DNA of 64,000 nucleotides from Trichormus sp. M33_DOE_039 (GTDB lineage: Bacteria; Cyanobacteriota; Cyanobacteriia; Cyanobacteriales; Nostocaceae), in NCBI GenBank assembly GCA_015296085.1, contig DVDT01000021.1:1-64000 (forward strand). The letters run 5' to 3'. Of this stretch, positions 14,175 through 26,080 are shown piece after piece (position 1 is the stretch's first letter; each line of letters opens with the position of its first letter). The notes beneath the pieces are model-generated. The model was given only the letters and a program-made list of their open reading frames with translations. It was not told where the DNA came from and did no database searches. A program made the position numbers and the translations under genes.

Positions 14175-15728
14175 CTACTCCTTCCTCAATGCTTGCGCTG
14201 TCTGTACGCCTTGTAATAACTGGCTGAGGGCAACTTGTAGTTGTACACCAGGGTCAACAGCCACCCATCCGTTCTGTGTGAGATGACGGACTTCAAAGTG
14301 CAGGTGAGGGCCTGTTGAGTTACCAGTGTTACCCACGCGCCCAATCACAGTTCCCGGTTCTACCCATTGTCCTGGTTGTACAAAGATTTCCGACATATGA
14401 CCGTAGAGGGTTTGTTGAGCAGAACTGTGGTTGAGGATGACGGTTAAACCATAACCGCCTTGCCAATCAGCTGTGGTTACTTGACCTCTAGCAGCTGCCA
14501 AAATCGGTGTACCTAGAGGCGCACCTAAATCAGTACCGGCGTGAAAACGGCGATTACCTGTGATGGGGTGAATTCGCCAGCCAAATAAAGATGTCACTGG
14601 TGCTGCTACAGCTAGAGGATAAACCATCCCACTACCACCACGGTACGCTAATGTACTGGTGTAAGGAATTTGTGGCAATACTGATGCTAAAGGAATATCG
14701 TAAGTGACATTACTCTCACGAGGAGCAACGTTCCCTTCTGCCATTGGCGGGGGTAGTGTACCGCCGCTGGGTGCAATGGGAGTAGCACTGACTCTGGTTG
14801 TGCCGAATTCGCTGGGGTTGGGAATGAAACGGTTAGCATGAAAAGCTGTTTTATTTGCGCTACCAACAGCTACTTGAGAGCCACGCCATCTGCTTTGGCT
14901 TTGTGTACTAGCCAAAGGACGTACTGGGGATGCTGCTAACTGAGCAGTTTGACTCTTTCTGAGCCATGTGGGGGCTGATTTGGCTACGCGCTGGTTAGAT
15001 GATGGTGTTTGAGCGCAAGCACTACCAGCGACTCCTTGTCCAGAAGACAGAACGGTGCGACAGCCGCTAGAGCGTTCTGTAAGAATTACGGAATTTGGTG
15101 CTTGGTAAGTACCAGCATTATTAGAGCTGTAGTCGTTGGGGTCAATATAGGCGTTGTTATAATCCTGCTTGGGTTGCCTAACTGTAACGCTATTATTATT
15201 TGATTCGTTCGATGGTTGGGCAACTACTGGTTTTTTATTAGTTAATAATGGTTGAGCAACTGCTGGTTTCTGATCAGGTGTAGTTACTTCCCGTTGGGGT
15301 TTAACTTTGGTATCTTGTGCTGGTGCAATTCGGGACGTTTCTACTTGGGGTTGTGACTTTCTCACACTAAAAACTGGCTCGGTAGCCTCATTGTCAATAT
15401 TAGGTTGAGATTGTCTGACGGGCTTTGGTGATTGCGAAACTTCTGGTTGACGTAGCCTTTGCCTGAGTTTACTCTGCCGTGCAGAGAATTTTGGCTGTGA
15501 TTGAGATGCGGCTGGGGGTACAACATCTTTTTTCACTGGAATAGTCGCTGCTGTTGGTTGGGAACTTTCAACAGTAGGAACAATATTATCTATTGATGTT
15601 TCTGTTTGTGCCAACACCAAGCCGCCACTGAGGAGGCTAACACCACTTAACCAACACAGGCTTTGTGCTGGCAGAGTGTAGGCTAGGCGTTTCTTTGGAT
15701 TATGGGCAGAGTGATTGCGCTGCGTCAT
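14175..15728 (-). CDS. secreted M23-family metallopeptidase (peptidoglycan endopeptidase)
   Basis: The 517-residue protein has an N-terminal signal-like hydrophobic segment (about 22-42), a long Gln/Pro/Ser-rich low-complexity linker (about 50-330), and a C-terminal LytM/M23 domain. Zinc ligands are visible in FHAGTDLG (His, Asp) and GPHLHFEVR (HxH), with LYGHMSEI between them. M23 enzymes cut peptidoglycan cross-links, or activate amidases when ligands are missing; here all appear present. The disordered linker may span the wall. The peptidase ends against the repeat array between it and ribE. Confidence 0.92.
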   Translation of the reverse strand: MTQRNHSAHNPKKRLAYTLPAQSLCWLSGVSLLSGGLVLAQTETSIDNIVPTVESSQPTAATIPVKKDVVPPAASQSQPKFSARQSKLRQRLRQPEVSQSPKPVRQSQPNIDNEATEPVFSVRKSQPQVETSRIAPAQDTKVKPQREVTTPDQKPAVAQPLLTNKKPVVAQPSNESNNNSVTVRQPKQDYNNAYIDPNDYSSNNAGTYQAPNSVILTERSSGCRTVLSSGQGVAGSACAQTPSSNQRVAKSAPTWLRKSQTAQLAASPVRPLASTQSQSRWRGSQVAVGSANKTAFHANRFIPNPSEFGTTRVSATPIAPSGGTLPPPMAEGNVAPRESNVTYDIPLASVLPQIPYTSTLAYRGGSGMVYPLAVAAPVTSLFGWRIHPITGNRRFHAGTDLGAPLGTPILAAARGQVTTADWQGGYGLTVILNHSSAQQTLYGHMSEIFVQPGQWVEPGTVIGRVGNTGNSTGPHLHFEVRHLTQNGWVAVDPGVQLQVALSQLLQGVQTAQALRKE

Positions 15729-15828
15729 TGTTTCTCTCAGTTGAGTTGTGTCTGATTTGCCTAAAGAGATGATGCCAGTGGTTTGTCTTACCCAAAGAGC
15801 GAAATTGTCAACAAACCTGATATGAATC

Positions 15829-16707
15829 TTAAGAACTACGATAACCCAAACTAATTCTACCGGGTTCTAGATGAATTTCTGGTGTTTTCATATCAGTTAT
15901 GCAATCTCTTTCTAAGGATACTCGTAAACTCCCTTGAGGTGTTACGCCCACAACATTACCTGCAAGGTCGTTGACGTAAACGCGATCGCCCATGTTCACT
16001 AAAAATTCTAAATAGCGAGACAGAAGTATACTTATTCCTTCTTCTAAAAGGCAAGCCAGACCGGATTCTATGCCCAGTAAAACCTTACATATTAAGGTTT
16101 CTAGACAAGGGATTGGGTAATGGGTACTGGGTATTGGGGATTGGGAGAAAGAATTTGTATTTGTATAAGTATTCTCCCCTGTCCCTTGTCCCCTTCTTGC
16201 TTGCCATGTTTGTAAGTTAATCCCCGTCTCCAGTACAGGATTAGCCCAGTTGATGCCAACACCAACAACTGCTTGCGTGATTTTGCCTTGATTAACTTTG
16301 GTTTCTGTCAAAATGCCGCCTAATTTGCGACCCTCTAAAACTAAATCATTAGGCCATTTAATTCCAACATTAATCCCACATTGACGCAATTGATCAGCAA
16401 TTCCCCAAGCGGTAGCTAAAGTGAGTCGGTAGCTGGCGTTAGCTTCTAGATCAGGATTAATGGCTACAGAAAGATATAATCCGCCGGTTTGGGAAATCCA
16501 CTGCCGACCCCATTGTCCCCTCCCGGCTGTTTGCTCTGTGGCAATCACTACAGTTCCTGCTTTTGCTCCTTGAGTGATTAATTCCCAGAGAGCTATGTTT
16601 GTTGAATTAACACAGTCAAAAATGTGTAGAGAAAACGGTAAATAATCATACTTGCGCTCGGTGGTGAGAGCAGTTAATAATTTTTGCTGATCAAGTTTTA
16701 CAGCCAT
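15829..16707 (-). CDS. birA: biotin--[acetyl-CoA carboxylase] ligase, class I
   Basis: BirA attaches biotin to the biotin carboxyl carrier protein of acetyl-CoA carboxylase. The 292-residue protein begins directly with the catalytic domain (no N-terminal HTH, so it is not a repressor). GRGQWGRQW at 62-70 binds biotinyl-AMP, KWPNDL at 117-122 carries the catalytic Lys, and a short C-terminal SH3-like domain follows. An unusual polar insertion at residues 170-200 is encoded by heptanucleotide repeats (see the repeat entry). The rest of the protein is normal. Confidence 0.94.
   Translation of the reverse strand: MAVKLDQQKLLTALTTERKYDYLPFSLHIFDCVNSTNIALWELITQGAKAGTVVIATEQTAGRGQWGRQWISQTGGLYLSVAINPDLEANASYRLTLATAWGIADQLRQCGINVGIKWPNDLVLEGRKLGGILTETKVNQGKITQAVVGVGINWANPVLETGINLQTWQARRGQGTGENTYTNTNSFSQSPIPSTHYPIPCLETLICKVLLGIESGLACLLEEGISILLSRYLEFLVNMGDRVYVNDLAGNVVGVTPQGSLRVSLERDCITDMKTPEIHLEPGRISLGYRSS
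16111..16198. repeat. heptanucleotide repeats inside the birA reading frame
   Basis: Five heptamers (GATTGGG, TAATGGG, TACTGGG, TATTGGG, GATTGGG) at 16111..16145 and further CTCCCCT/GTCCCTT/GTCCCCT heptamers at about 16173-16195 are the same class as the intergenic STRRs, but here they are translated. They encode about 30 residues rich in Ser, Thr, Pro and Asn inserted between the catalytic and C-terminal domains of BirA. Confidence 0.85.
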
Positions 16708-16988
16708 TAACAGAAATTCCGTTGTTCACTTTAGCTACTTAAGTGCTGTTAGACAACTCTCTATGAAGATGAGTTCACAAGTCAACAGTCACTAGTCATG
16801 ATTACACGCAAAATCCCAACCTACCGCATTGTTCACTGGGGGCATTTTTTGGTCTCTTATTGTTACTCCTGAGTAAAAATTTTTTCACTCCCGAAACAAT
16901 GGGCAAACTGCGAGTGATGACTTTCACTCACTGGGGATTCAAGTTAGCATGAATTGGCTGATAAGTTTCTGTTTAGGTTTGGTTCAAG

Positions 16989-17762
16989 ATGCACACTTGG
17001 CATTGGCATAATTGGGAGGGACTACCATACCTAACTTGTAGTCTCTTAGGAAATTGGCAACATGGCTTTTTTACCCAGCAGTTTTGGCCGCGATCGCCCC
17101 ACGAGTTAACAAAGGTGCTGCACCCAGAAGCATCAGCATATCGATTGAAACAGGTACATGGCAATACAGTTCTCACCCCTAAGGAAATAGATGCGAATCT
17201 GGATGCAGAGGATGAATTAGCTTTAGCAGATGGTTTAATGAGTGAAGCAGCTCTGCAAGCTGTGTGGGTAGCCAGCGCAGACTGTACACCTGTTTTAATT
17301 GGGGATGTCAAAACTGGACGGGTAGCAGCACTCCATGCAGGTTGGCGGGGAACAGCACAGAAAATTGTGCCGCAGGCGATCGCTCGGATGCAAGCCCAAG
17401 GTAGTCAGTTAACAGACTTGCGGATTGCAATGGGGCCAGCCATTGCTGGCGAAGTTTACCAAGTTTCTGTGGAAGTTGCAGCAGAAATTGGAACTAGCAT
17501 TACACCATATGACGACACCCAAAAAATTGTTCAGACGCTACATGAGTTACCTAATTCACCCTTGTTAGCTGACCCCGAACCAGGAAGAGTCAGGGTAGAT
17601 GTGCGGCGAGTCAATGCTTTGCAAATGGAAAGCTTAGGGATTAGTAGCGAGCAGATAGCGATCGCACCTTACTGCACTTACCAAACTCCAGATCATTTCT
17701 TCTCCTATCGTCGTGAGCAACAGAAAAAGGTGCAATGGTCGGGGATTGTTAGTGTGTCTTAA
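16989..17762 (+). CDS. pgeF: PgeF/YfiH family protein (multicopper-oxidase-like fold, purine nucleoside phosphorylase family)
   Basis: This 257-residue protein belongs to the YfiH/DUF152 family. Metal-site residues are visible: His57 in KQVHGNTV, Cys99 in ASADCTPVLI, and His116 in ALHAGWRG. Members have been reported as peptidoglycan-editing factors in E. coli and as zinc-dependent purine nucleoside phosphorylases; the annotation laccase is older. Which activity applies here cannot be read from sequence. It converges with the FMO gene across a shared terminator. Confidence 0.9.
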   Translation: MHTWHWHNWEGLPYLTCSLLGNWQHGFFTQQFWPRSPHELTKVLHPEASAYRLKQVHGNTVLTPKEIDANLDAEDELALADGLMSEAALQAVWVASADCTPVLIGDVKTGRVAALHAGWRGTAQKIVPQAIARMQAQGSQLTDLRIAMGPAIAGEVYQVSVEVAAEIGTSITPYDDTQKIVQTLHELPNSPLLADPEPGRVRVDVRRVNALQMESLGISSEQIAIAPYCTYQTPDHFFSYRREQQKKVQWSGIVSVS

Positions 17763-17783
17763 AGTGAACTTGCCTGCTCAAAA

Positions 17784-17816
17784 TTTGTAGGACAGATGTT
17801 TTATCTGTCCTACAAA
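17784..17816. terminator. bidirectional stem-loop terminator between pgeF and the FMO gene
   Basis: TTTGTAGGACAGAT (17784..17797) and ATCTGTCCTACAAA (17803..17816) pair perfectly over 14 bp around GTTTT. It lies between two converging stops and A/T runs flank both sides, so it can end both transcripts. Confidence 0.85.
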
Positions 17817-17845
17817 CTCATAAAAGAAAAATATAGTATTTTTAT

Positions 17846-19393
17846 TCAAGCAATACTAACCTGCTCACTATTCTTGACAGCCGTATCACCTAAAGATTCA
17901 CATCTTCTTGATTTTAAAATCTGTCTAATTTGTTGATAGTTAGATGGAGATACAGGTAAGATCATTTTGATAATTTGTGTCCAGCTTGTAGGATTACTTT
18001 TTATCACCATATCCTCCATCAATTCCTCAATATAATGAAAACTAAATGGGAATATAGATGTACCATTGTATAAACTAGATTCCCACTCTTTCTGTTTCCA
18101 TTGCCATTCTACTGCTATTTCTTCTAGCATCTTTTGTGGTGATGGTAAATTGAGTTGTCCTTGAAAATATTCCACCAACCACTGAGAACTAATATCTGAT
18201 GTTAAAGGACAAAATTTGCTCGAATTGTAACCCACAAAGCCTAATTGCTGAATGTGAGGGTGAATAAGATTACGGTAAAGTTGGAAATTACCTTGCTCAT
18301 TTATGATTAGACGACGATAATCTGCTTCCAAAAAAGGAACATCTTGACGAAATCCTGTGCCGAATACCACAATATCCGCAGGTATATATTCACCAGTTGC
18401 TAACTCTACGCCACCGGAAACAAATTGTTTAATTTCTGTCTTTTTAGTCTGAATTTTTCCAGAACGTACGTAATTATAAAAGTTGGGAGTTTCTAAAGCG
18501 ATCGCCGCAATTACCCATTGATTTAAGGGTTTCTCAGGGAGCATTCCACAGGTATCCAAACTGAGTTGGTAACGGAGTAAAATTTCGTTAATGCGCCAAA
18601 AAGCCCAGACTAATGGCTTACCCAAAGTGTGCAACACCCATTCCATCCCCCGCAATTGACGATAGGGTAGCCAACTTTCAGCAAACCGTGTCAACAAAAT
18701 ATACTTGACATTCACTACACCCAAGAAAAATTTAGGAATCTTCCAAGGTATTTGACGAAACACCATCGTGCATTCTGAAGCTAAATTAGCAGACATAGTA
18801 GCGATGTCAGTCGCAGATTTACCAAGACCTACAACAACTACCCGCTTACCTTCCACAATCGAGGCGTTGTTAAACTCTGTGGTGTGTAATATCTGACCTC
18901 CAGATGCGATGAAGTCTTCCTTACCGGGTAATGAAGGTTGGTGAGGAATGCTAAAAGTCCCAGTACACACTACAACAAAATCAAACTCCAACTGTTCCTG
19001 TGTTGTCTGTCCAGAAACCTGATCACGAAATTGGATACTAACTAACCATCCTGATGTTTCTGTAGTTTTTCTTTTTATCTGAGTTACTTCTGTTTGGAAA
19101 CGAATTTTGGGTGTAATACCGAAATGTTCAGCGTAGGATGCTAAGTAATTTCGCATCTGTTCGGCGGTAGGCCACTCTGGATAAGATGCAGGCATAGGAT
19201 AATCAGGAAAGGCGTAGGTATCGCGAGGGCTTTGAATGGTAAGACCGGGATAATTTCTAGATTTTTCCCACACACCACCCAGTCCTGATTGTTTCTCAAA
19301 CACTCTAACTTCGTAACCTGCTTCGATAAATGTTTTAGCGGTAGTTAGGCCGCTGACACCAGAGCCAATTACACATACTTGCTTGGCTTGCAT
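17846..19393 (-). CDS. flavin-containing monooxygenase, last gene of the peptide cluster
   Basis: The 515-residue protein has an N-terminal FAD site GSGVSGLTTAK (10-20), an NADPH site GLGKSATD (189-196) and a GxxxHxxxF segment (166-174) resembling the FMO/BVMO fingerprint. FMO-family enzymes oxygenate N, S or C atoms using NADPH and O2, and single-component FMO-type tryptophan halogenases (AetF type) are known in cyanobacteria. It lies on the same strand as the halogenase-like gene, 217 nt behind it and after a hairpin, so it may have its own promoter. AGGAT lies upstream of the ATG. The substrate is unknown. A role in modifying the repeat peptide, or in supplying reduced flavin, is inference only. 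Confidence 0.85.
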   Translation of the reverse strand: MQAKQVCVIGSGVSGLTTAKTFIEAGYEVRVFEKQSGLGGVWEKSRNYPGLTIQSPRDTYAFPDYPMPASYPEWPTAEQMRNYLASYAEHFGITPKIRFQTEVTQIKRKTTETSGWLVSIQFRDQVSGQTTQEQLEFDFVVVCTGTFSIPHQPSLPGKEDFIASGGQILHTTEFNNASIVEGKRVVVVGLGKSATDIATMSANLASECTMVFRQIPWKIPKFFLGVVNVKYILLTRFAESWLPYRQLRGMEWVLHTLGKPLVWAFWRINEILLRYQLSLDTCGMLPEKPLNQWVIAAIALETPNFYNYVRSGKIQTKKTEIKQFVSGGVELATGEYIPADIVVFGTGFRQDVPFLEADYRRLIINEQGNFQLYRNLIHPHIQQLGFVGYNSSKFCPLTSDISSQWLVEYFQGQLNLPSPQKMLEEIAVEWQWKQKEWESSLYNGTSIFPFSFHYIEELMEDMVIKSNPTSWTQIIKMILPVSPSNYQQIRQILKSRRCESLGDTAVKNSEQVSIA

Positions 19394-19492
19394 TATTAGT
19401 TTTATCCTTAGTTATTAGTTTATTAGTTATTAGTTATCACCTAATATTTTTGAATATGGATGATGGATATTAAAAAGTAAAAAATTTGTCTG

Positions 19493-19531
19493 GGAAAGTT
19501 TGAGTGTAGAAAAACTCCACTCAGACTTTCC
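19493..19531 (-). terminator. terminator-like hairpin between halogenase-like gene and FMO gene
   Basis: GGAAAGTTTGAGTG and CACTCAGACTTTCC pair over 14 bp with one G.T, around an 11-nt loop. In the minus direction it is followed after a few bases by T-rich tracts (ATTTTTTACTTTTTAA). It could end, fully or partly, the transcript coming from the halogenase gene. Confidence 0.65.
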
Positions 19532-19610
19532 ACAAAAGTAAAAAGAAAAGATTCTCTTGCCTTTTTATTGCCCCATTCTCATCAATAAAGGTATTGGACT
19601 TTAATGAGGA

Positions 19611-21314
19611 TTAACTCCGACTGGTGTAATGGAGTTGACCTTCAACCGGCATAGAAATTTTCAGTGGTGGCTTATCAGGATTTAAAGAGGCTTTCACCCA
19701 ACCTTCTAAAACCATAACTTCCAAGCAGAACATTGTATGCTGAATGGCGATGCGAAGATGTTCTGGAGCAAAACGCGCCTTGAACAAACTAATTAAGTAA
19801 TGATAAATTTGTTCGACATCAGAGGTGCGGCTGAGAATATCGATTAATAAACCATAAAGACCAGTGATCGGCAAGCGATCGCCATTTTCTCGGCGGTAAC
19901 ATTTCACTTGGTTAATCTCACCATTGCTATAGACAGCAACAAATTCCTCGGTGGTGTTCTCGATGTCCAACTCAAAGATGTTGTAACCGCTAATTTCCCA
20001 AGGTAATTCTTCCTTGGAAAAACGCTGTACCATTTGTTTCATCGCCCCCAAATCAAAACCACCAATCACAGCTTGACCAACGATATCATTGGTAAAACCG
20101 CCTTGGGCTAACCAGCGAAAAGCTTCGGCTGGACTGAGATTTAATCCCGCTTCTTTAGCTATAGTTTGACAGTGATCATACAAATCTGTAAATTGACCAT
20201 TAGAAGCGTACCAATAATCAGCAAAGCGAATGTGTTGTTGTACACGACGACGCTGATTTTGATCGTATTGGTTTTTTAACCAATCAGGGTCATATTTGCT
20301 TTGATGCAATGCCGATATGGTATAGGCTAATTCCCGACCTCCAACATGGGTGAGAGTTAACCCAGCAGATAAGATTGGGTCAGCGAAACCTGCGGCTTCT
20401 CCTACTAAAAACCAATTTTCCCCCACAGTCCTCTCTGCTAGGAAAGACCAATCTTTAGTAATCTCGATATTACCTCTACTACTAGCATTAGCCAGCAACT
20501 TGGAAATGAAGGGTTCGTCTTGGAGTGCTTGATGATAAATCTCTGCGGCTGACTTTTTCGCTTGTTTGTAATAGCTAGCTGGACAGACAAAACCAACGCT
20601 AGTACGGGTTGGCCCTAAAGGAATAAACCAAATCCACCCGTGTGGTAAGCTCATTACTTGTATCCGAGTCCCACCTACACCAATCTCTACAGCCCACTCT
20701 GCATTTTCCCAATAATCCCAGATAGCGACATTTTGCAGTTGTGTAGGAGATTCAGTTTGTACACCTACAGCCTTCCGCAACACACCAACGTGACCAGAAC
20801 CATCAGCGTAATAAGTCGCAGTGATTTTTTCCCCAGTATTTAAGTGTAACGCAGTGATGCGATCGCCTTGTGTGTCCACTTTTACTACTGCTGTTTGTTC
20901 TCGTACTTCACACCCCAATTCTTCGGCGTGGCGCAGCAGAATATCATCATAAATTGCACGGTCAACTTGGAAAGCTGTTTGTTTACGTTGTCCTGCAAAC
21001 TTAGCCGGACGAGCTTCTTCTTTAAATTCCTCTAAGCGCAAAAAGTGAAACTCCCAAGGTTCCGGATCTTGTCCCCAGCGATAGTTACCCCCAACTTTGA
21101 TTGGGAAATTAGCAGCTTCTACTTTATCCCAACACCCCATCTCATCAAGGATCTCACTAATCTGTGGTAGTTGGCTTTCACCGACATGATCTCGTGGAAA
21201 TTTCTCCTTTTCAACAATTAATACACGCAGTTGAGGATTATACTTCTTCAATAGAGTGCCAGTTGTGCTACCTGCTGGGCCGCCACCAACAATTACAACA
21301 TCATAATGATTCAT
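19611..21314 (-). CDS. flavin-dependent halogenase-like oxidoreductase in the repeat-peptide cluster
   Basis: The 567-residue protein has the FAD site GGGPAGS (10-16) and FPRDHVGES (39-47) typical of the tryptophan-halogenase/geranylgeranyl-reductase superfamily. Two features favour true halogenases: Lys73 in PIKVGGNYRWG, at the place of the hypohalous-acid lysine, and the WxWxIP motif as WIWFIP at 227-232. GEAAGFADPILSAG binds FAD further on. The C-terminal 180 residues are extra and unassigned. No flavin reductase gene is adjacent. It lies 195 nt behind the repeat peptide gene on the same strand. I infer that it halogenates the peptide, for which Trp in each repeat is the obvious candidate; hydroxylation or another oxidation cannot be excluded. 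Confidence 0.85.
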   Translation of the reverse strand: MNHYDVVIVGGGPAGSTTGTLLKKYNPQLRVLIVEKEKFPRDHVGESQLPQISEILDEMGCWDKVEAANFPIKVGGNYRWGQDPEPWEFHFLRLEEFKEEARPAKFAGQRKQTAFQVDRAIYDDILLRHAEELGCEVREQTAVVKVDTQGDRITALHLNTGEKITATYYADGSGHVGVLRKAVGVQTESPTQLQNVAIWDYWENAEWAVEIGVGGTRIQVMSLPHGWIWFIPLGPTRTSVGFVCPASYYKQAKKSAAEIYHQALQDEPFISKLLANASSRGNIEITKDWSFLAERTVGENWFLVGEAAGFADPILSAGLTLTHVGGRELAYTISALHQSKYDPDWLKNQYDQNQRRRVQQHIRFADYWYASNGQFTDLYDHCQTIAKEAGLNLSPAEAFRWLAQGGFTNDIVGQAVIGGFDLGAMKQMVQRFSKEELPWEISGYNIFELDIENTTEEFVAVYSNGEINQVKCYRRENGDRLPITGLYGLLIDILSRTSDVEQIYHYLISLFKARFAPEHLRIAIQHTMFCLEVMVLEGWVKASLNPDKPPLKISMPVEGQLHYTSRS

Positions 21315-21432
21315 AAGAATTTGGGAGTTGTGAATAGTATGTTTCGCGTCACGAGAATCAATTTAAAATCAGAAACATTTGCCCAGATATAACTAGCACT
21401 TCTCCGTCAATTAGAGTTTGATGCACCGTTAC

Positions 21433-21478
21433 AGCATACTGAAAAGTACACCTACCCATAGGAAATTTTCAGTATGCT
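21433..21478 (-). other. perfect 13-bp inverted repeat after the repeat-peptide gene
   Basis: AGCATACTGAAAA (21433..21445) and TTTTCAGTATGCT (21466..21478) pair perfectly around a 20-nt loop, starting 32 nt beyond the peptide stop codon. No T-run follows in the minus direction, so it looks more like an mRNA 3'-end stabiliser, processing site or leaky terminator than a classical terminator. Such an element would raise precursor levels over those of the downstream enzymes. Confidence 0.7.
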
Positions 21479-21509
21479 AAGAGTTAGATGGGCAATCTAG
21501 TGTTAGCTT

Positions 21510-21743
21510 TTAGGCATTACCAGCTAATGCTATTTCTGCATTGCTCATAGCAGGATGGCAGATATCTAGATTTTCTGTCCAAGTGTGGGATATTTCTAAA
21601 TTTTCTGTCCAAGTGTGGGAGATATCCAAATTTTCTGTCCAAGTATGGGAGATTTCTAAATTCTCTGTCCAAGTGTGAGCAATATCCAGATTTTCTGTCC
21701 AAGTGTGGATAAGATTAATATCTTGTTTTTGAACTTTAGACAT
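21510..21743 (-). CDS. repeat peptide with five HTWTENL[D/E]I[A/S/C] units, candidate RiPP precursor
   Basis: The 77-residue product has a 12-residue N-terminus (MSKVQKQDINLI), five head-to-tail decapeptides at residues 13-62, and a 15-residue tail (HPAMSNAEIALAGNA). Position 8 alternates D, E, D, E, D and position 10 is A, S, S, S, C. A strong AAGGAG site (21751..21756 on the opposite strand) lies 7-8 nt before the ATG. Codons of equivalent residues differ silently (five Leu use CTG, TTA, TTG, TTA, CTA), so the protein sequence is constrained. It is flanked on the same strand by an HDO-like oxidase and a halogenase-like flavoenzyme. I do not recognise a known precursor family. Multicore RiPP precursor is the best inference; a structural repeat peptide is the alternative. 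Confidence 0.75.
   Translation of the reverse strand: MSKVQKQDINLIHTWTENLDIAHTWTENLEISHTWTENLDISHTWTENLEISHTWTENLDICHPAMSNAEIALAGNA
21549..21707 (-). repeat. five 30-bp direct repeats coding the decapeptides
   Basis: The five 30-nt units align without gaps. ACT-TGG-ACA is identical in all five copies. Differences concentrate in third codon positions and in the Asp/Glu and Ala/Ser/Cys codons. The D/E alternation suggests that a 60-nt double unit was once duplicated. Confidence 0.9.
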
Positions 21744-21913
21744 GATGCTACTCCTTAGTAAATAGATGAACTTGGGTAGGTGCTAAACATAAAAAATCTG
21801 CTATATTCAGGCACAAAAATTTAGATTACTCTTAAGCATTCACCGTAGTAATCAACTGTTATCACATATAATATTCAGAGATAAAATTAAAGCTTCATAC
21901 CCAAATACTTAAT

Positions 21914-22657
21914 TTAAGCAGCAGATAAATCAGTCTTTATAATGCCAATTTTTTCCAATGTTTGCGGCTCATCATAATTTACAGCATATTCAAAGAGCGC
22001 ATTGACTAATTCTATAATTAACTCAAATATTGTTTCTGCCATTTCTAAAGCAGATTGATACTGTAACCCAGTTAGTTCAAGGTTATTCAGGAATGATTCT
22101 ATATCATTTTTACCTGTAGTATGACCAGTTTCTACAGCTAGATGAAATTCTCCAAAATATAGATATTTATTGCCTGTGATGGCTTGTAGTTCTTGGGCAA
22201 CTTTTGCGGCATTAGCAAATACAATATTACCGGTAGACTCTAGCACTTCGATAATCACTAGTTTTTGGAGAGGATCTGATTCTAAAGCATAACGGAATAA
22301 CTGATAAATTACCCAACGTGGTGTTTTAGTTTGGTCGCCCCATAAAAATTTCACATTGTCGGTAAATTTCAGTGAGTAGTCAAAACCGAGTTTCTCAATA
22401 TCTGATAGAAACCAAAGCCAGTGATGATCATCCTCTTCAGTATGTTTATTAATTAATAGCTGAATAGGATCATTGCTGGTGAGATCGCGAAATCCGTATT
22501 TATTTAATTCTCCAAAACCCATAATAAAAGGTGTAGCATACGGACTCCAAGCTAATCTTTTTCTAGGAGCTATGCTTGTATCTTGCATGAATTTTAATAA
22601 GGGTAGCTGGGCAAATTCTTGCTTCTTAGCGTCAATGAGTGCAAGGATTCCTTTCAT
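21914..22657 (-). CDS. haem-oxygenase-like metal-dependent oxidase (HDO, CADD/DUF3865-like)
   Basis: The 247-residue, all-helical protein has the ligand pattern of the haem-oxygenase-like diiron family: HTEEDDHHW at 72-80, Glu137/Glu140 in IIEVLESTG, and FHLAVETGH at 171-179. Relatives include CADD, UndA and the nitrile-forming AetD; a Nostoc CADD-like structure (DUF3865) is the closest relative I recall. These enzymes use O2 and iron (or Fe/Mn) to cleave, desaturate or oxidise amino-acid-derived substrates. It is the first gene of the cluster, 170 nt ahead of the repeat peptide. A role on the peptide is inferred from context. Confidence 0.8.
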   Translation of the reverse strand: MKGILALIDAKKQEFAQLPLLKFMQDTSIAPRKRLAWSPYATPFIMGFGELNKYGFRDLTSNDPIQLLINKHTEEDDHHWLWFLSDIEKLGFDYSLKFTDNVKFLWGDQTKTPRWVIYQLFRYALESDPLQKLVIIEVLESTGNIVFANAAKVAQELQAITGNKYLYFGEFHLAVETGHTTGKNDIESFLNNLELTGLQYQSALEMAETIFELIIELVNALFEYAVNYDEPQTLEKIGIIKTDLSAA

Positions 22658-23401
22658 GTTTAATGCCCTATCTTATGTGAATGATTTAATTTTGAAAAAG
22701 CTCAAATCAACGCTGCACTCATTACGGTGTTCATCTTCCTGCATATTTACTGTATTGAATGCTTAACAAAATAAAGTTTTTACATGAACACTTGAACTTA
22801 TTAACCATTTTTAATATCTTTTTGTATGAAACAGTATCCGTAATTATTGCTATTTATTTGTGTAAAAAATATTTTAAGATATAAGCCGTATTAAAACGCT
22901 ATTCTTTCGCTATATACTGAGAGCAATGCAACTAATACTTAGATTTAGCAATATTTTTGTAATATTTTTACCCTTGACAAAACCCATTTATATCTTGAAC
23001 AAAATATTTTGTAGACGATCTAATGTGTTGGATATCACAGCGATATAATTAGCTATACTTAATTATAGTTTTTTCATGACAATTAGAAATTAAAAATTAT
23101 GCGAAAAATCTTCATGCTCAGTTTGATTTTGCTCGCGTTCAAGTGAGCATAGAGAGCAAGTATTTATTTATATAAAATTACATTGCAAAAACTGCTAGTT
23201 ATTTTTCCTTAAATATCATTCAAAAGATAGATGACATAAACAATAAATTATGGAAATGTCAGATATAAATTATTTATAACAATGCTGATAATTACGCCTC
23301 ATCTACACCAAACTTAGGATGTTTTTAAGGTACATAATCATAATATAGTGCTGAGTGTTATCACAGGTATCCCAATATTCTTGTTAACTTAATTTAATTG
23401 A
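22658..23401. other. AT-rich spacer upstream of the peptide cluster
   Basis: This 744-nt spacer separates csaB from the cluster on the same strand and is the likely promoter region of the cluster. It contains a possible 23-codon minus-strand frame (22673..22744) and a possible 15-codon hydrophobic plus-strand frame (23099..23146) next to overlapping GCTC/GAGC and TTGCTC/GAGCAA inverted repeats. Nothing else is clear. Confidence 0.5.
22673..22744 (-). CDS. possible 23-residue leader ORF before the HDO-like gene
   Basis: ATG at 22744 opens a 24-codon frame (with stop) that ends 15 nt before the HDO-like start. The product is MQEDEHRNECSVDLSFFK followed by five residues. There is no good ribosome-binding site, so this may be chance. 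If translated, it could couple translation to the oxidase gene. Confidence 0.15.
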   Translation of the reverse strand: MQEDEHRNECSVDLSFFKIKSFT

Positions 23402-24448
23402 CTAAATCAGCATTTGACATAATAAATCACGGTGTCTCAATGCTCCATCTATTAATGATTGGATAGTTAGGGGTGAAAGTGGTTGAGCATTGGCGTAATG
23501 TGCTATCCAAGTCTGACTAATTAACTGTGGATCATCTGGTAGGTTTACTAAATCCCAACCAGGCATTGTCAAATCTTCCATCAAACGGTTAACCTTGGGA
23601 TCATAACTAAGGGCAAAACAGCGACAACCTTCAGCCGCAGCCATAATTAAACTGTGCAGTCGCATTCCAATTGCCATTTCTACATCTCGAAATACCCCTT
23701 TTAATATTTGCGGATCTTCGAGACACAAAATCTGACTCACATCTGCAAGGTGTGGTTGTATGGCTTGAGCAATATCTAAATCTTCGCTTTTTTGAAACGG
23801 CAGCAAGATAATAAAAGTCTGCGTAGCTTTTTGAAATTCTACTAAGGCACGAATTAAATTAGCTAACCGTGCTTCAGTTAATAGGGGATGCTTTCTTAAG
23901 GTAACGGCGACTCTAGGCTGAGGTAAATCCCAAATTGCTGATACTGGTTTTCCTTCCAAAGCCCAAACCGGATCAGGTGCAAGGATATGCGGAATTTGCC
24001 AATTAGATAATAAAGCTGCACTGGCGCGATCGCGCACACTAACTTGAGTGCAACCAGCAAAATTTTTTCTTGCTAACCACTGTGTTTGCGGACGTACCAA
24101 AGGGCCGATACCCTGCGCCCAAGCAATAGTCTTTAAACCCATGCTTTGAGCCAACGCCATCAGCCCCCCATAATAAAAGGGACTCATAGTGCTGGTAACA
24201 TCCTGAATCAAACTCCCACCGCCCCAAATTAAAGCCTGACAGGAACGTAAAGCTTGCAGTACGGCTAGAGGCGACATGCGATTATACGCTTCCACATTGT
24301 AGCGATCGCGCGTTTCCTCTGGATTTCCCGAAAGCACCACAGGCGTGACATGAGATGGTAGCATTTGCAGGAGTGTCGCTAATAAAGCTTCATCACCACC
24401 GTTCCCTTTACCGTAATACCCAGATAATAGCGATCGCATCGTTCCCAT
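23402..24448 (-). CDS. csaB: polysaccharide pyruvyl transferase CsaB
   Basis: CsaB adds pyruvate ketals to secondary cell-wall polysaccharide, which in bacteria with SLH proteins creates the SLH docking site. The protein has the family N-terminus LLSGYYGKGNGGDEALL, then LIWGGGSLIQD, IAWAQGIGPL and IGMRLHSLIMAAAEG. I chose the ATG at 24448; the frame extends 12 codons to a TTG, and an ATG at 24439 matches the usual MR start. An SLH-type porin is encoded 10 kb away, which fits the supposed function. Confidence 0.9.
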   Translation of the reverse strand: MGTMRSLLSGYYGKGNGGDEALLATLLQMLPSHVTPVVLSGNPEETRDRYNVEAYNRMSPLAVLQALRSCQALIWGGGSLIQDVTSTMSPFYYGGLMALAQSMGLKTIAWAQGIGPLVRPQTQWLARKNFAGCTQVSVRDRASAALLSNWQIPHILAPDPVWALEGKPVSAIWDLPQPRVAVTLRKHPLLTEARLANLIRALVEFQKATQTFIILLPFQKSEDLDIAQAIQPHLADVSQILCLEDPQILKGVFRDVEMAIGMRLHSLIMAAAEGCRCFALSYDPKVNRLMEDLTMPGWDLVNLPDDPQLISQTWIAHYANAQPLSPLTIQSLIDGALRHRDLLCQMLI

Positions 24449-24601
24449 TGCAAATAATTTAGATGTTGGATTTAAGGTTATCAACTTTTTCTAAGTAGTT
24501 CACCAGATGTCAGTCATCTTGCTACAAAAAGTTGAATTGGCCTGTGCGAAGATGAAGTGAGTCCCGACTATTGACTGTTGACTGTTGACTAATGACTTTC
24601 T

Positions 24602-24949
24602 ATGAACGCTCTTTCAATTCCCACTTGGATTATTCATATTTCTAGCGTCATTGAGTGGATAGCCGCAATTTGGTTAATCTGGACTTATGGCGAACTTACT
24701 GGAAATCGCAGTTGGTGGGGATTGTCCCTGGCGATGTTACCAGCGTTGGTAAGTGCTATGTGTGCTTGTACTTGGCATTATTTCGACAATGCCCAATCTC
24801 TAGAATGGCTAGTAACATTGCAAGCTACTATGACTGTAGTTGGTAATTTTACCCTTTGGGCTGCGGCGGTATGGATTTGGCGTTCCTCCTGCAGCACCAA
24901 GATAGACACTAATGCTTTTGAGCCAAAATCTATTAAATCAGAGCGATGA
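24602..24949 (+). CDS. Ycf49-like membrane protein (DUF2499)
   Basis: The 115-residue protein has three hydrophobic helices. The sequence (IPTWIIHISSVIEWIAAIW, then GNRSWWGLSLAMLPALVSA, then HYFDN) is typical of DUF2499, the family also known as Ycf49-like, conserved in cyanobacteria, algal plastids and plants. The function is not known to me. The stop overlaps the start of the DUF3593 gene by four bases (ATGA), so the two are translationally coupled. Confidence 0.88.
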   Translation: MNALSIPTWIIHISSVIEWIAAIWLIWTYGELTGNRSWWGLSLAMLPALVSAMCACTWHYFDNAQSLEWLVTLQATMTVVGNFTLWAAAVWIWRSSCSTKIDTNAFEPKSIKSER

Positions 24950-25233
24950 TATCTAAAGACACCCTATTCGCCTTATCACTGTTTCCTTATCTGGGTTTCT
25001 TGTGGTTTATCACCCGCAGTCAACAACTACCCCGTTTAGCATTGTATGGATTTTACGGCACTCTAGTTTTCGTGGCTGTGACAATTCCCGCCGGAATATA
25101 CGCCAAAATTCATTACGGTGAAGCTTTAGCTAACGTAGATTGGCTACATGGTGGGGCGGAAGTTTTTTTAACACTTTCTAATATTTTAATTGTGTTGGGT
25201 TTTCGCCAAGCTGTTAAGCAATTAAAAAAATAG
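24946..25233 (+). CDS. DUF3593 membrane protein
   Basis: The 95-residue protein has three predicted helices and a DWLHGGAEVFLTLSN stretch characteristic of DUF3593. This family is, like DUF2499, conserved in oxygenic phototrophs. The ATGA overlap with the upstream gene suggests that the two proteins act together in a membrane, possibly the thylakoid. The exact function is unknown. Confidence 0.86.
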   Translation: MISKDTLFALSLFPYLGFLWFITRSQQLPRLALYGFYGTLVFVAVTIPAGIYAKIHYGEALANVDWLHGGAEVFLTLSNILIVLGFRQAVKQLKK

Positions 25234-25306
25234 GTGATAGGGGAAAATATTTGACTGTTGAGTGTTTGTTGGCTAATGAATATTGACTAAGTAGGGAAAA
25301 TTTAAT

Positions 25307-26080
25307 ATGGATGTAATTCCAGCGATTGATTTACTAGATGGTCGCTGTGTGCGACTGTATCAGGGAGACTATGATCGCTCCCAAGTTTTTAGCGAAAATC
25401 CTGTTGATGTGGCGAAACAATGGGTAGATCAGGGCGCAACTAGATTGCACATTGTGGATTTAGATGGCGCAAAGGCAGGTAAAGTAGTAAACTTGCAGGC
25501 AATTGAGGCGATCGCACAAGCAATTTCTATCCCTATTGAAATTGGTGGTGGATTGCGTGATCAAGCCAGTGTACAACAAGTTTTTAATTTAGGAGTGCAG
25601 TGGGCAATTCTCGGTACTGTCGCCGTTGAACAACCCCAATTAGTACAAGAACTCTGCCAAGAGTTTCCCGAAAAAATTATCATTGGCATTGATGCTCGTA
25701 ACGGACTAGTCGCCACTCGCGGTTGGTTAGAAACTTCACAAGTATTAGCTACTCAACTTGCTGTCCAAATGCAAGAACTGGGAGCAGCCGCAATTATTTA
25801 CACTGATATTCACCGTGATGGAACTCTAGAAGGGCCGAACTTGGAAGCGTTGCGCGAACTCGCCGCAGCAATCTCAATTCCAGTGATTGCTTCTGGAGGA
25901 GTAAGTTCTGTCACCGATTTATTGAGTTTGTTGGCGTTAGAACCCCAAGGTGTTAAAGGGGTAATTGTCGGACGCGCCCTGTATACTGGTGATATTTCTC
26001 TAAGAGAAGCATTGCAGGCGATCGGGCCAGGACGAATTCAAGACATACCACCCAATTTAGGCTTTTCTTCCTTCGCTTGA
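25307..26080 (+). CDS. hisA: ProFAR isomerase, histidine biosynthesis
   Basis: HisA converts ProFAR to PRFAR in histidine biosynthesis. The 257-residue TIM-barrel protein begins [22 protein letters not shown] with the catalytic Asp, has IEIGGGLRD and [14 protein letters not shown] with the second Asp, and the phosphate site IASGGVSS. It follows the DUF3593 gene by 73 nt and ends before a terminator at 26275. Confidence 0.96.

Follow-up and report, generated by a model that had tools for sequence, protein, structure and literature searches.

AetD, the haem-oxygenase-like diiron oxidase (HDO) of the aetokthonotoxin pathway, converts 5,7-dibromo-Trp into indole-3-carbonitrile. Its iron ligands are given as D76, H79, E140, H172, E176 and H179, and the substrate is placed against F44, F48 and I146 with its carboxylate contacted via Y167 (PMC11611611; PMC10654658); bromine on the Trp is not required for the reaction (PMC10654658). 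SktA is an HDO that converts 5-bromo-Trp into 5-bromoskatole and differs from AetD at positions 139, 142 and 214 (PMC13108848). Here, we describe a gene cassette of the cyanobacterium Trichormus sp. M33_DOE_039 (assembly GCA_015296085.1) that lies within positions 1 to 64,000 of contig DVDT01000021.1, a stretch of 64,000 nucleotides referred to below as the window. The cassette joins an AetD-type HDO to a Trp-repeat peptide (PEP), a flavin-dependent halogenase-like enzyme (HAL) and a flavin-binding monooxygenase (FMO). Its first three genes recur together in some filamentous cyanobacteria of several genera, and on sequence grounds it is a candidate pathway for ribosomally synthesised and post-translationally modified peptides (RiPPs), or of that general type, with a new enzyme pairing.

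Organisation of the cassette

The four genes form a one-directional run on the minus strand, head to tail in the order HDO, PEP, HAL, FMO. The original prediction of four same-strand genes, one of them encoding five HTWTENL[D/E]I[A/S/C] units, was confirmed at the following positions:

21914-22657, minus strand: HDO, AetD-type haem-oxygenase-like diiron oxidase, 247 aa; first cassette gene, phmmer match to AetD
21510-21743, minus strand: PEP, repeat peptide, 77 aa; adjoins HDO and HAL in 15/15 cassettes
21558-21707, minus strand: the five PEP units HTWTENL[D/E]I[A/S/C], one Trp each; period-30 tandem repeat
21510-21557, minus strand: C-terminal tail of PEP, HPAMSNAEIALAGNA, and stop codon
19611-21314, minus strand: HAL, flavin-dependent halogenase-like enzyme, 567 aa, with a C-terminal part of ~190 aa that has no significant family match; PF04820/PF01494
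17846-19393, minus strand: FMO, flavin-binding monooxygenase, 515 aa; PF00743, accessory
16989-17762, plus strand: laccase-domain gene, a neighbour of the cassette; PF02578
23402-24484, minus strand: polysaccharide pyruvyl transferase gene, a neighbour of the cassette; PF04230

PEP consists of a 12-residue leader (MSKVQKQDINLI), five decapeptides ending in A, S, S, S and C, and the 15-residue tail. Of 14 tandem-repeat rows in the window, the two top-scoring ones (215 and 243) belong to the 30-bp array of PEP, with 79 as the next score, and a GGAG sequence lies upstream of the start codon. No RNA element reached its gathering score in positions 15000-26000, and promoter and terminator predictions did not rise above those for shuffled sequences.

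Conservation of the peptide and its partner enzymes

Co-occurrence was surveyed in 386 genomes of the window's phylum, using profiles for HDO (E <= 1e-5) and HAL (E <= 1e-60) and a DNA motif for PEP (HTWTE[N/K/T][L/F]). The HDO profile matched 33 of these genomes and the HAL profile six; the PEP motif was present in the same six, with an HDO gene adjoining each time. A reversed control pattern for the motif had zero matches, and the co-occurrence of motif and HAL has a Fisher P-value of 2e-13, with kinship ignored. A wider search for the PEP sequence pattern, in one genome per species across 84,980 species, returned 12 loci, of which 11 are cyanobacterial and show the HDO-PEP-HAL order. The twelfth, on a Bacteroidales contig (L014), was rejected as spurious, since the match is to a long, unrelated protein and neither enzyme is encoded close by.

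Collection via PEP or HAL left 15 distinct cassettes once duplicates had been dropped, some of them close kin (L004/L013; L003/G338). All 15 have HDO, PEP and HAL on the same strand and in this order, the HAL gene of L013 being cut by a contig end, and the PEP gene is present in Nostoc, Anabaena, Calothrix, Microcoleus and Tychonema. The original prediction had made its case depend on co-conservation of the peptide with the enzymes. The peptide-enzyme link is supported for HDO and HAL; FMO is loosely associated, being present in 4 of the 15 cassettes. What is found is the arrangement of a multicore RiPP locus, namely a small precursor gene with a repeated core, co-conserved beside tailoring enzymes. 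Besides HDO, PEP, HAL and a kinase described below, no gene group occurs in more than 7 of the 15 cassettes, whose flanks are of unequal length with not all genes annotated, and no HAL was found on plasmids in PLSDB at E <= 1e-60.

The array itself, foreseen as multicore-like with one Trp per unit, is conserved. Unit number ranges from 3 to 7 per gene, giving 74 HTWT-starting units in the 15 genes; the HTWT in this count is invariant by construction, and the fifth residue is Glu in 74/74. In G089, the unit reads HTWTETLDIS, and the tails of many relatives end in ...AVG, ...GNA or ...ANA. Comparison of units within the same gene, pooled over the 15 genes, gave 0.39 synonymous differences per synonymous site (pS) and 0.044 nonsynonymous differences per nonsynonymous site (pN); the resulting pN/pS of 0.11 indicates purifying selection on the protein sequence of the repeat. 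L011 stands out (pN 0.20), since units of 10 and of 8 residues are combined in its array; the units of L071 are identical to one another. Judged by the mostly synonymous unit differences, the GGAG sequence and the spread over five genera, the repeat is more than a chance array. Pfam gave it no known repeat family, the only matches being below threshold (DUF7415, 25.9 of 27 bits, with no single stretch passing).

Several PEP leaders end in a unit-like stretch that lacks Trp, such as TVTENLDIA or STETLDIS. ENLDI[A/S] may therefore be a recognition element that recurs ahead of every Trp.

The diiron oxidase

The window HDO aligns with AetD (8ji2, 8twn and 8zvg; phmmer E 2e-49) without gaps across 224 residues, so that residue numbering coincides. 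The six iron ligands D76, H79, E140, H172, E176 and H179, together with F44 and F48, are invariant in 12/12 aligned HDO rows, and Y167 is retained in 11 of the 12. No Pfam family scored above its cut-off, and the AlphaFold model is nearly all helix (mean pLDDT 80.8). By homology and by its six ligands, the enzyme is thus placed in the AetD/SktA-type diiron family. The original description as HDO/CADD-like gives way to AetD-type.

Residues 139, 142 and 214 are L, T and I in the window HDO, M, A and S in AetD, and T, T and F in SktA. At the thresholds used, no alignment column separates PEP-linked HDOs (14 rows, the G089 row being excluded) from other HDOs (34 rows), and a Trp-like substrate is therefore expected. 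Since the characterised relatives AetD and SktA take free (bromo)tryptophan, the end product may be a small indole compound rather than a peptide.

An HDO tree of 49 rows was used to examine how PEP-linked HDOs are related, with the PEP group defined before the tree and monophyly tests run on 43 rows, or on 42 without L071. The cassette HDOs of L011 (Calothrix) and L071 (G089) fall apart from the other PEP-linked HDOs: that of L011 pairs with the PEP-less HDO of L055 (support 98/81), and that of L071 sits on a long branch with weakly supported placement (88/64). The PEP label changes four times among the 43 rows, or three times without L071, and a single clade of PEP-linked HDOs is rejected by the approximately unbiased test (P = 1.9e-5 for 43 rows, 2.5e-6 for 42). 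The kinase tree needs at least three changes. In the group table, where the PEP rows stand against only three FMO rows, a single origin was not rejected (1 change, support 54/73). Because PEP-linked HDOs do not group as a single clade, several HDO lineages have probably acquired, or retained, the link; label changes may represent gains of PEP and HAL, exchanges of HDO, or losses of PEP and HAL. The retention of PEP and HAL beside diverged AetD-type HDOs is the best evidence that the three act together.

Related oxidases were also seen elsewhere. The window's genome has two further HDO genes (L051:6010-6732 and L052:6007-6705), one of them (C61) adjoining a giant kinase gene and the other (C47) divergent, and L059:5977-7605 holds a tandem pair of AetD-type HDO genes. 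HDO relatives with 34-36% identity occur on Streptomyces clavuligerus pSCL4 (L094:6001-6675) and a Cupriavidus plasmid (L095:5001-5630), and no HAL, FMO, PEP or kinase was found near these two. Plasmid records of Escherichia (260) and Salmonella (22) carry distant relatives (25-26% identity among the matches listed), 36 Piscirickettsia records carry further relatives, and at L096:4001-5503 a distant relative makes up the N-terminal half of a hypothetical protein of ~500 aa.

The halogenase-type flavoenzyme

HAL matches PF04820 (E 1e-40), and its leading PDB sequence matches are 8zop, 3e1t (CndH), CmlS (3i3l), 5buk, ChlB4 and PltA, all of them known as halogenases. The catalytic Lys, the WxWxIP motif and the halide-site motif FxDPxxSxG are signatures of flavin-dependent halogenases. 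Both marks named in the original prediction, Lys73 and WIWFIP, are present in the window enzyme, and K73 and WxWxIP (W227/W229/I231/P232) are invariant in 11/11 HAL rows, so that HAL combines the FAD (flavin adenine dinucleotide) fold with the Lys and WxWxIP of a halogenase. The label of Trp-halogenase type is not borne out: in sequence, HAL sits closer to the group of 8zop, 3e1t, CmlS and PltA than to that of PrnA and RebH. The ten other HALs in the alignment each share 70% identity or more with the window enzyme, and HALs form one tight family. Its C-terminal part has no PDB match at E <= 10, and a Pfam scan of three HAL C-terminal parts gave insignificant matches only (E 0.05 or worse).

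The same profile searches raise the alternative that HAL is a QhpG/LodB-like peptidyl-Trp oxygenase, which would hydroxylate the Trp of PEP and leave HDO to work on hydroxy-Trp or on the peptide. The QhpG and LodB models match HAL at 133.5 of 240 and 100.8 of 400 bits, both under their curated cut-offs, and QhpG, which is structurally closest to CmlS, dihydroxylates peptidyl Trp (PMC7876137), so that the fold can act on Trp within a peptide. Yet CmlS scores higher (model NF033113, 176.6 of 900 bits, also under its curated cut-off), the leading PDB matches are halogenases while the QhpG entry 7CTQ is not among the 18 matches at E <= 1e-6, and the halogenase signatures are invariant. An oxygenase role for HAL is on balance quite unlikely.

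Variant operons and the giant kinase

Thirty-two HDO loci were compared, five of them with PEP, over flanks of ~6 kb or in some cases shorter. FMO also adjoins PEP-less AetD-type HDOs (L054, L056, L061 and L092). At L054 (6000-9995), the order is HDO, Trp halogenase, FMO, against HDO, PEP, HAL, FMO in the window; the best match of this Trp halogenase is the Trp 5-halogenase 8fov (E 2.5e-183), and the HDO carries T139, T142 and F214, the three SktA residues. By gene order, PEP and HAL occupy the place that is held in L054 by what looks like a free-Trp halogenase. The L054 operon is itself a possible SktA-type pathway. The order is HDO, Pyr_redox_3 flavoenzyme, FMO at L061 and HDO, FMO at L056, and a Calothrix NIES-4101 plasmid carries HDO, FMO, a short-chain dehydrogenase/reductase and the kinase. 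At both L061:2849-6856 and L078:4332-6734, an HDO gene adjoins a Pyr_redox_3 flavoenzyme of 531-533 aa, 68% identical between the two loci. AetF, which has a structure in the PDB, was not named by any match of the window FMO at E <= 1e-8 or of the L061 Pyr_redox_3 enzyme at E <= 1e-10.

Phage and defence origins were considered and set aside. FMO matches phrog_9677 as well as phrog_6397, a family with the label ribonucleotide reductase, and HAL matches phrog_2928 (tryptophan halogenase family, 6.7e-23), all judged to be ordinary flavoenzyme similarity; PEP and HDO have no phrog match. The single PADLOC match among the four proteins, of FMO residues 4-41 to a desaturase model, was judged generic.

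A kinase of ~1,900 aa and Ser/Thr-His type, with Pkinase, AAA, GAF and HATPase domains, stands at the edge of 13 of the 15 cassettes. It is absent beside the cassettes of the window and L074; gene-group clustering had put these two in the kinase cluster, an assignment put down to generic histidine-kinase similarity, since direct searches find no such kinase there. The kinase also lies within 4 kb of 13 of the 26 PEP-less HDOs (L051, L053, L055-L057, L061, L062, L066, L069, L070, L078, L080 and L081), and in 10 of these 13 cases the HDO and kinase genes are convergent on opposite strands. Seven genomes have 4 to 19 matches each to such kinases, and by our own arithmetic chance alone would account for ~1 of the 26. 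We infer that kinase and HDO are the older pair and that PEP and HAL are an addition. Sensing of the HDO product by the kinase may be entertained as an idea.

This association also bears on whether PEP is a biosynthetic substrate at all. With the kinase at the edge of most cassettes and two Thr in each unit, PEP might instead serve the kinase as a scaffold for phosphorylation or signalling, or regulate HDO. Such a role is highly improbable: the kinase is found near PEP-less HDOs as well, the window and L074 keep PEP with no adjacent kinase, and PEP tracks HAL.

Proposed pathway

It is proposed, with about an even chance of being correct, that the cassette acts as a biosynthetic module, with PEP as a multicopy Trp substrate, HAL as modifier of the Trp and HDO as the enzyme that then rearranges it. 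The role of PEP, the order of steps, halogenation, release and product are all inferred. In this scheme, the ribosomally made repeat peptide would be the substrate, and the ENLDI[A/S] stretches between Trp residues would act as recognition elements. Each HTWTENLDI unit has a single Trp, which HAL would modify, more likely by halogenation than by hydroxylation. HDO would then rearrange the modified Trp oxidatively; the product would resemble an indole nitrile or skatole, or be related to these, and FMO, where present, would tailor it.

Three routes to the HDO step are conceivable: a protease may release the Trp before HDO acts, cleavage may make the Trp C-terminal, or HDO may attack the chain directly, somewhat as CADD does with its own Tyr. 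HDO most likely acts after cleavage by a cellular protease, with the Trp free or C-terminal, because AetD binds the carboxylate and amine of Trp to Fe1 and an internal Trp of a peptide offers neither. MboA, another HDO, was crystallised with a tripeptide whose C-terminal carboxylate is on Fe1 (PMC13185094). The release-first route is favoured because L054 has a free-Trp-halogenase-like gene in place of PEP and HAL. Since no protease or exporter shared by the cassettes was seen in their partly annotated flanks, the task would fall to general proteolysis.

The products could instead be modified short peptides, as in a classical multicore RiPP pathway in which HAL halogenates the Trp of each core and HDO acts on the same chain. 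Near-identical repeated cores, numbering 3-7, behind a short leader and before similar tails fit this, as do the known peptide halogenases MibH, SrpI, MppI and ChlH (PMC12615548) and the tripeptide-bound MboA crystal. It is nevertheless rather unlikely, as no common exporter or peptidase was seen in the partly annotated flanks, where no further gene group is shared by more than 7 of 15 cassettes, the listed HDO active-site residues are the same as in PEP-less relatives, and L054 has its free-Trp-halogenase-like gene at the same place. Also unlikely, and to a slightly greater degree, is a sacrificial role for PEP as a multi-Trp donor: HAL would halogenate Trp in the chain, and HDO would strip or rearrange it, so that each peptide yields several halogenated indole nitrile- or skatole-like molecules, possibly sensed by the giant kinase.

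Several observations count against the proposed module of substrate, halogenase and oxidase. In HAL, the halide-site motif is FADPILSAG in the window, and its Ser is replaced by Ala in 6 of 11 HALs; among the matches listed (25 of 86), HAL falls under the curated cut-off of every NCBIfam model. A RiPP recognition element was sought by comparing the last 195 residues of 14 HALs, that of L013 being left out, with PqqD-type domains from 9 loci, and the hhalign probability was 0.14%; many RiPP enzymes have no such element. In HDO, the Anabaena 4-3 cassette has Phe at position 167, the enzyme of G089 is diverged (38%) with D76E and H72Y, and the window has Val and Ile where AetD has I146 and S214. 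Losses, like gains, could account for the label changes on the HDO tree. Finally, within the partly annotated flanks of the 15 cassettes, no protease, exporter or flavin reductase shared among the lineages was seen, and gene groups common to 3-7 cassettes track kinship.

Comparison with known systems

If the proposed module is correct, it would connect a ribosomal peptide with AetD-type chemistry, in which one enzyme forms a nitrile or skatole from Trp, and would make halogenation of peptide-borne Trp followed by diiron rearrangement directly testable with three small genes. If PEP is sacrificial, the cassette would provide a ribosome-templated indole alkaloid route that replaces free-Trp halogenation in the same operon type. 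Searches of open-licence papers brought up no report of the PEP motif, or of a precursor peptide paired with an AetD-type enzyme, and the pairing of an AetD-type HDO with a giant sensor kinase in many cyanobacteria is a genomic context not mentioned in the passages on AetD cited here.

The peptide halogenases MibH, SrpI, MppI and ChlH are likewise flavin-dependent and act on peptide Trp, but the passages cited here mention no HDO partner and give as their substrates lanthipeptides, proteusin-type peptides and lasso peptides rather than short decapeptide arrays (PMC12615548). QhpG and LodB resemble HAL in their profile matches and in a CmlS-like fold that works on peptidyl Trp (PMC7876137), but their substrate is a cofactor-bearing enzyme subunit and HAL lies under their cut-offs. 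CADD shares the HDO fold and the use of a protein residue as source of a small aromatic product; it draws on the enzyme's own Tyr (PMC13108848), whereas the source here, were PEP sacrificial, would be a separate multicopy peptide.

The closest systems are those of AetD and SktA, which the window resembles in the alignment of its HDO to AetD, the six ligands, residues F44, F48 and Y167, and a halogenase-type gene alongside. The window differs from both in HDO residues 139, 142 and 214, in a halogenase of the CmlS group and in the conserved Trp-repeat peptide encoded between HDO and halogenase.

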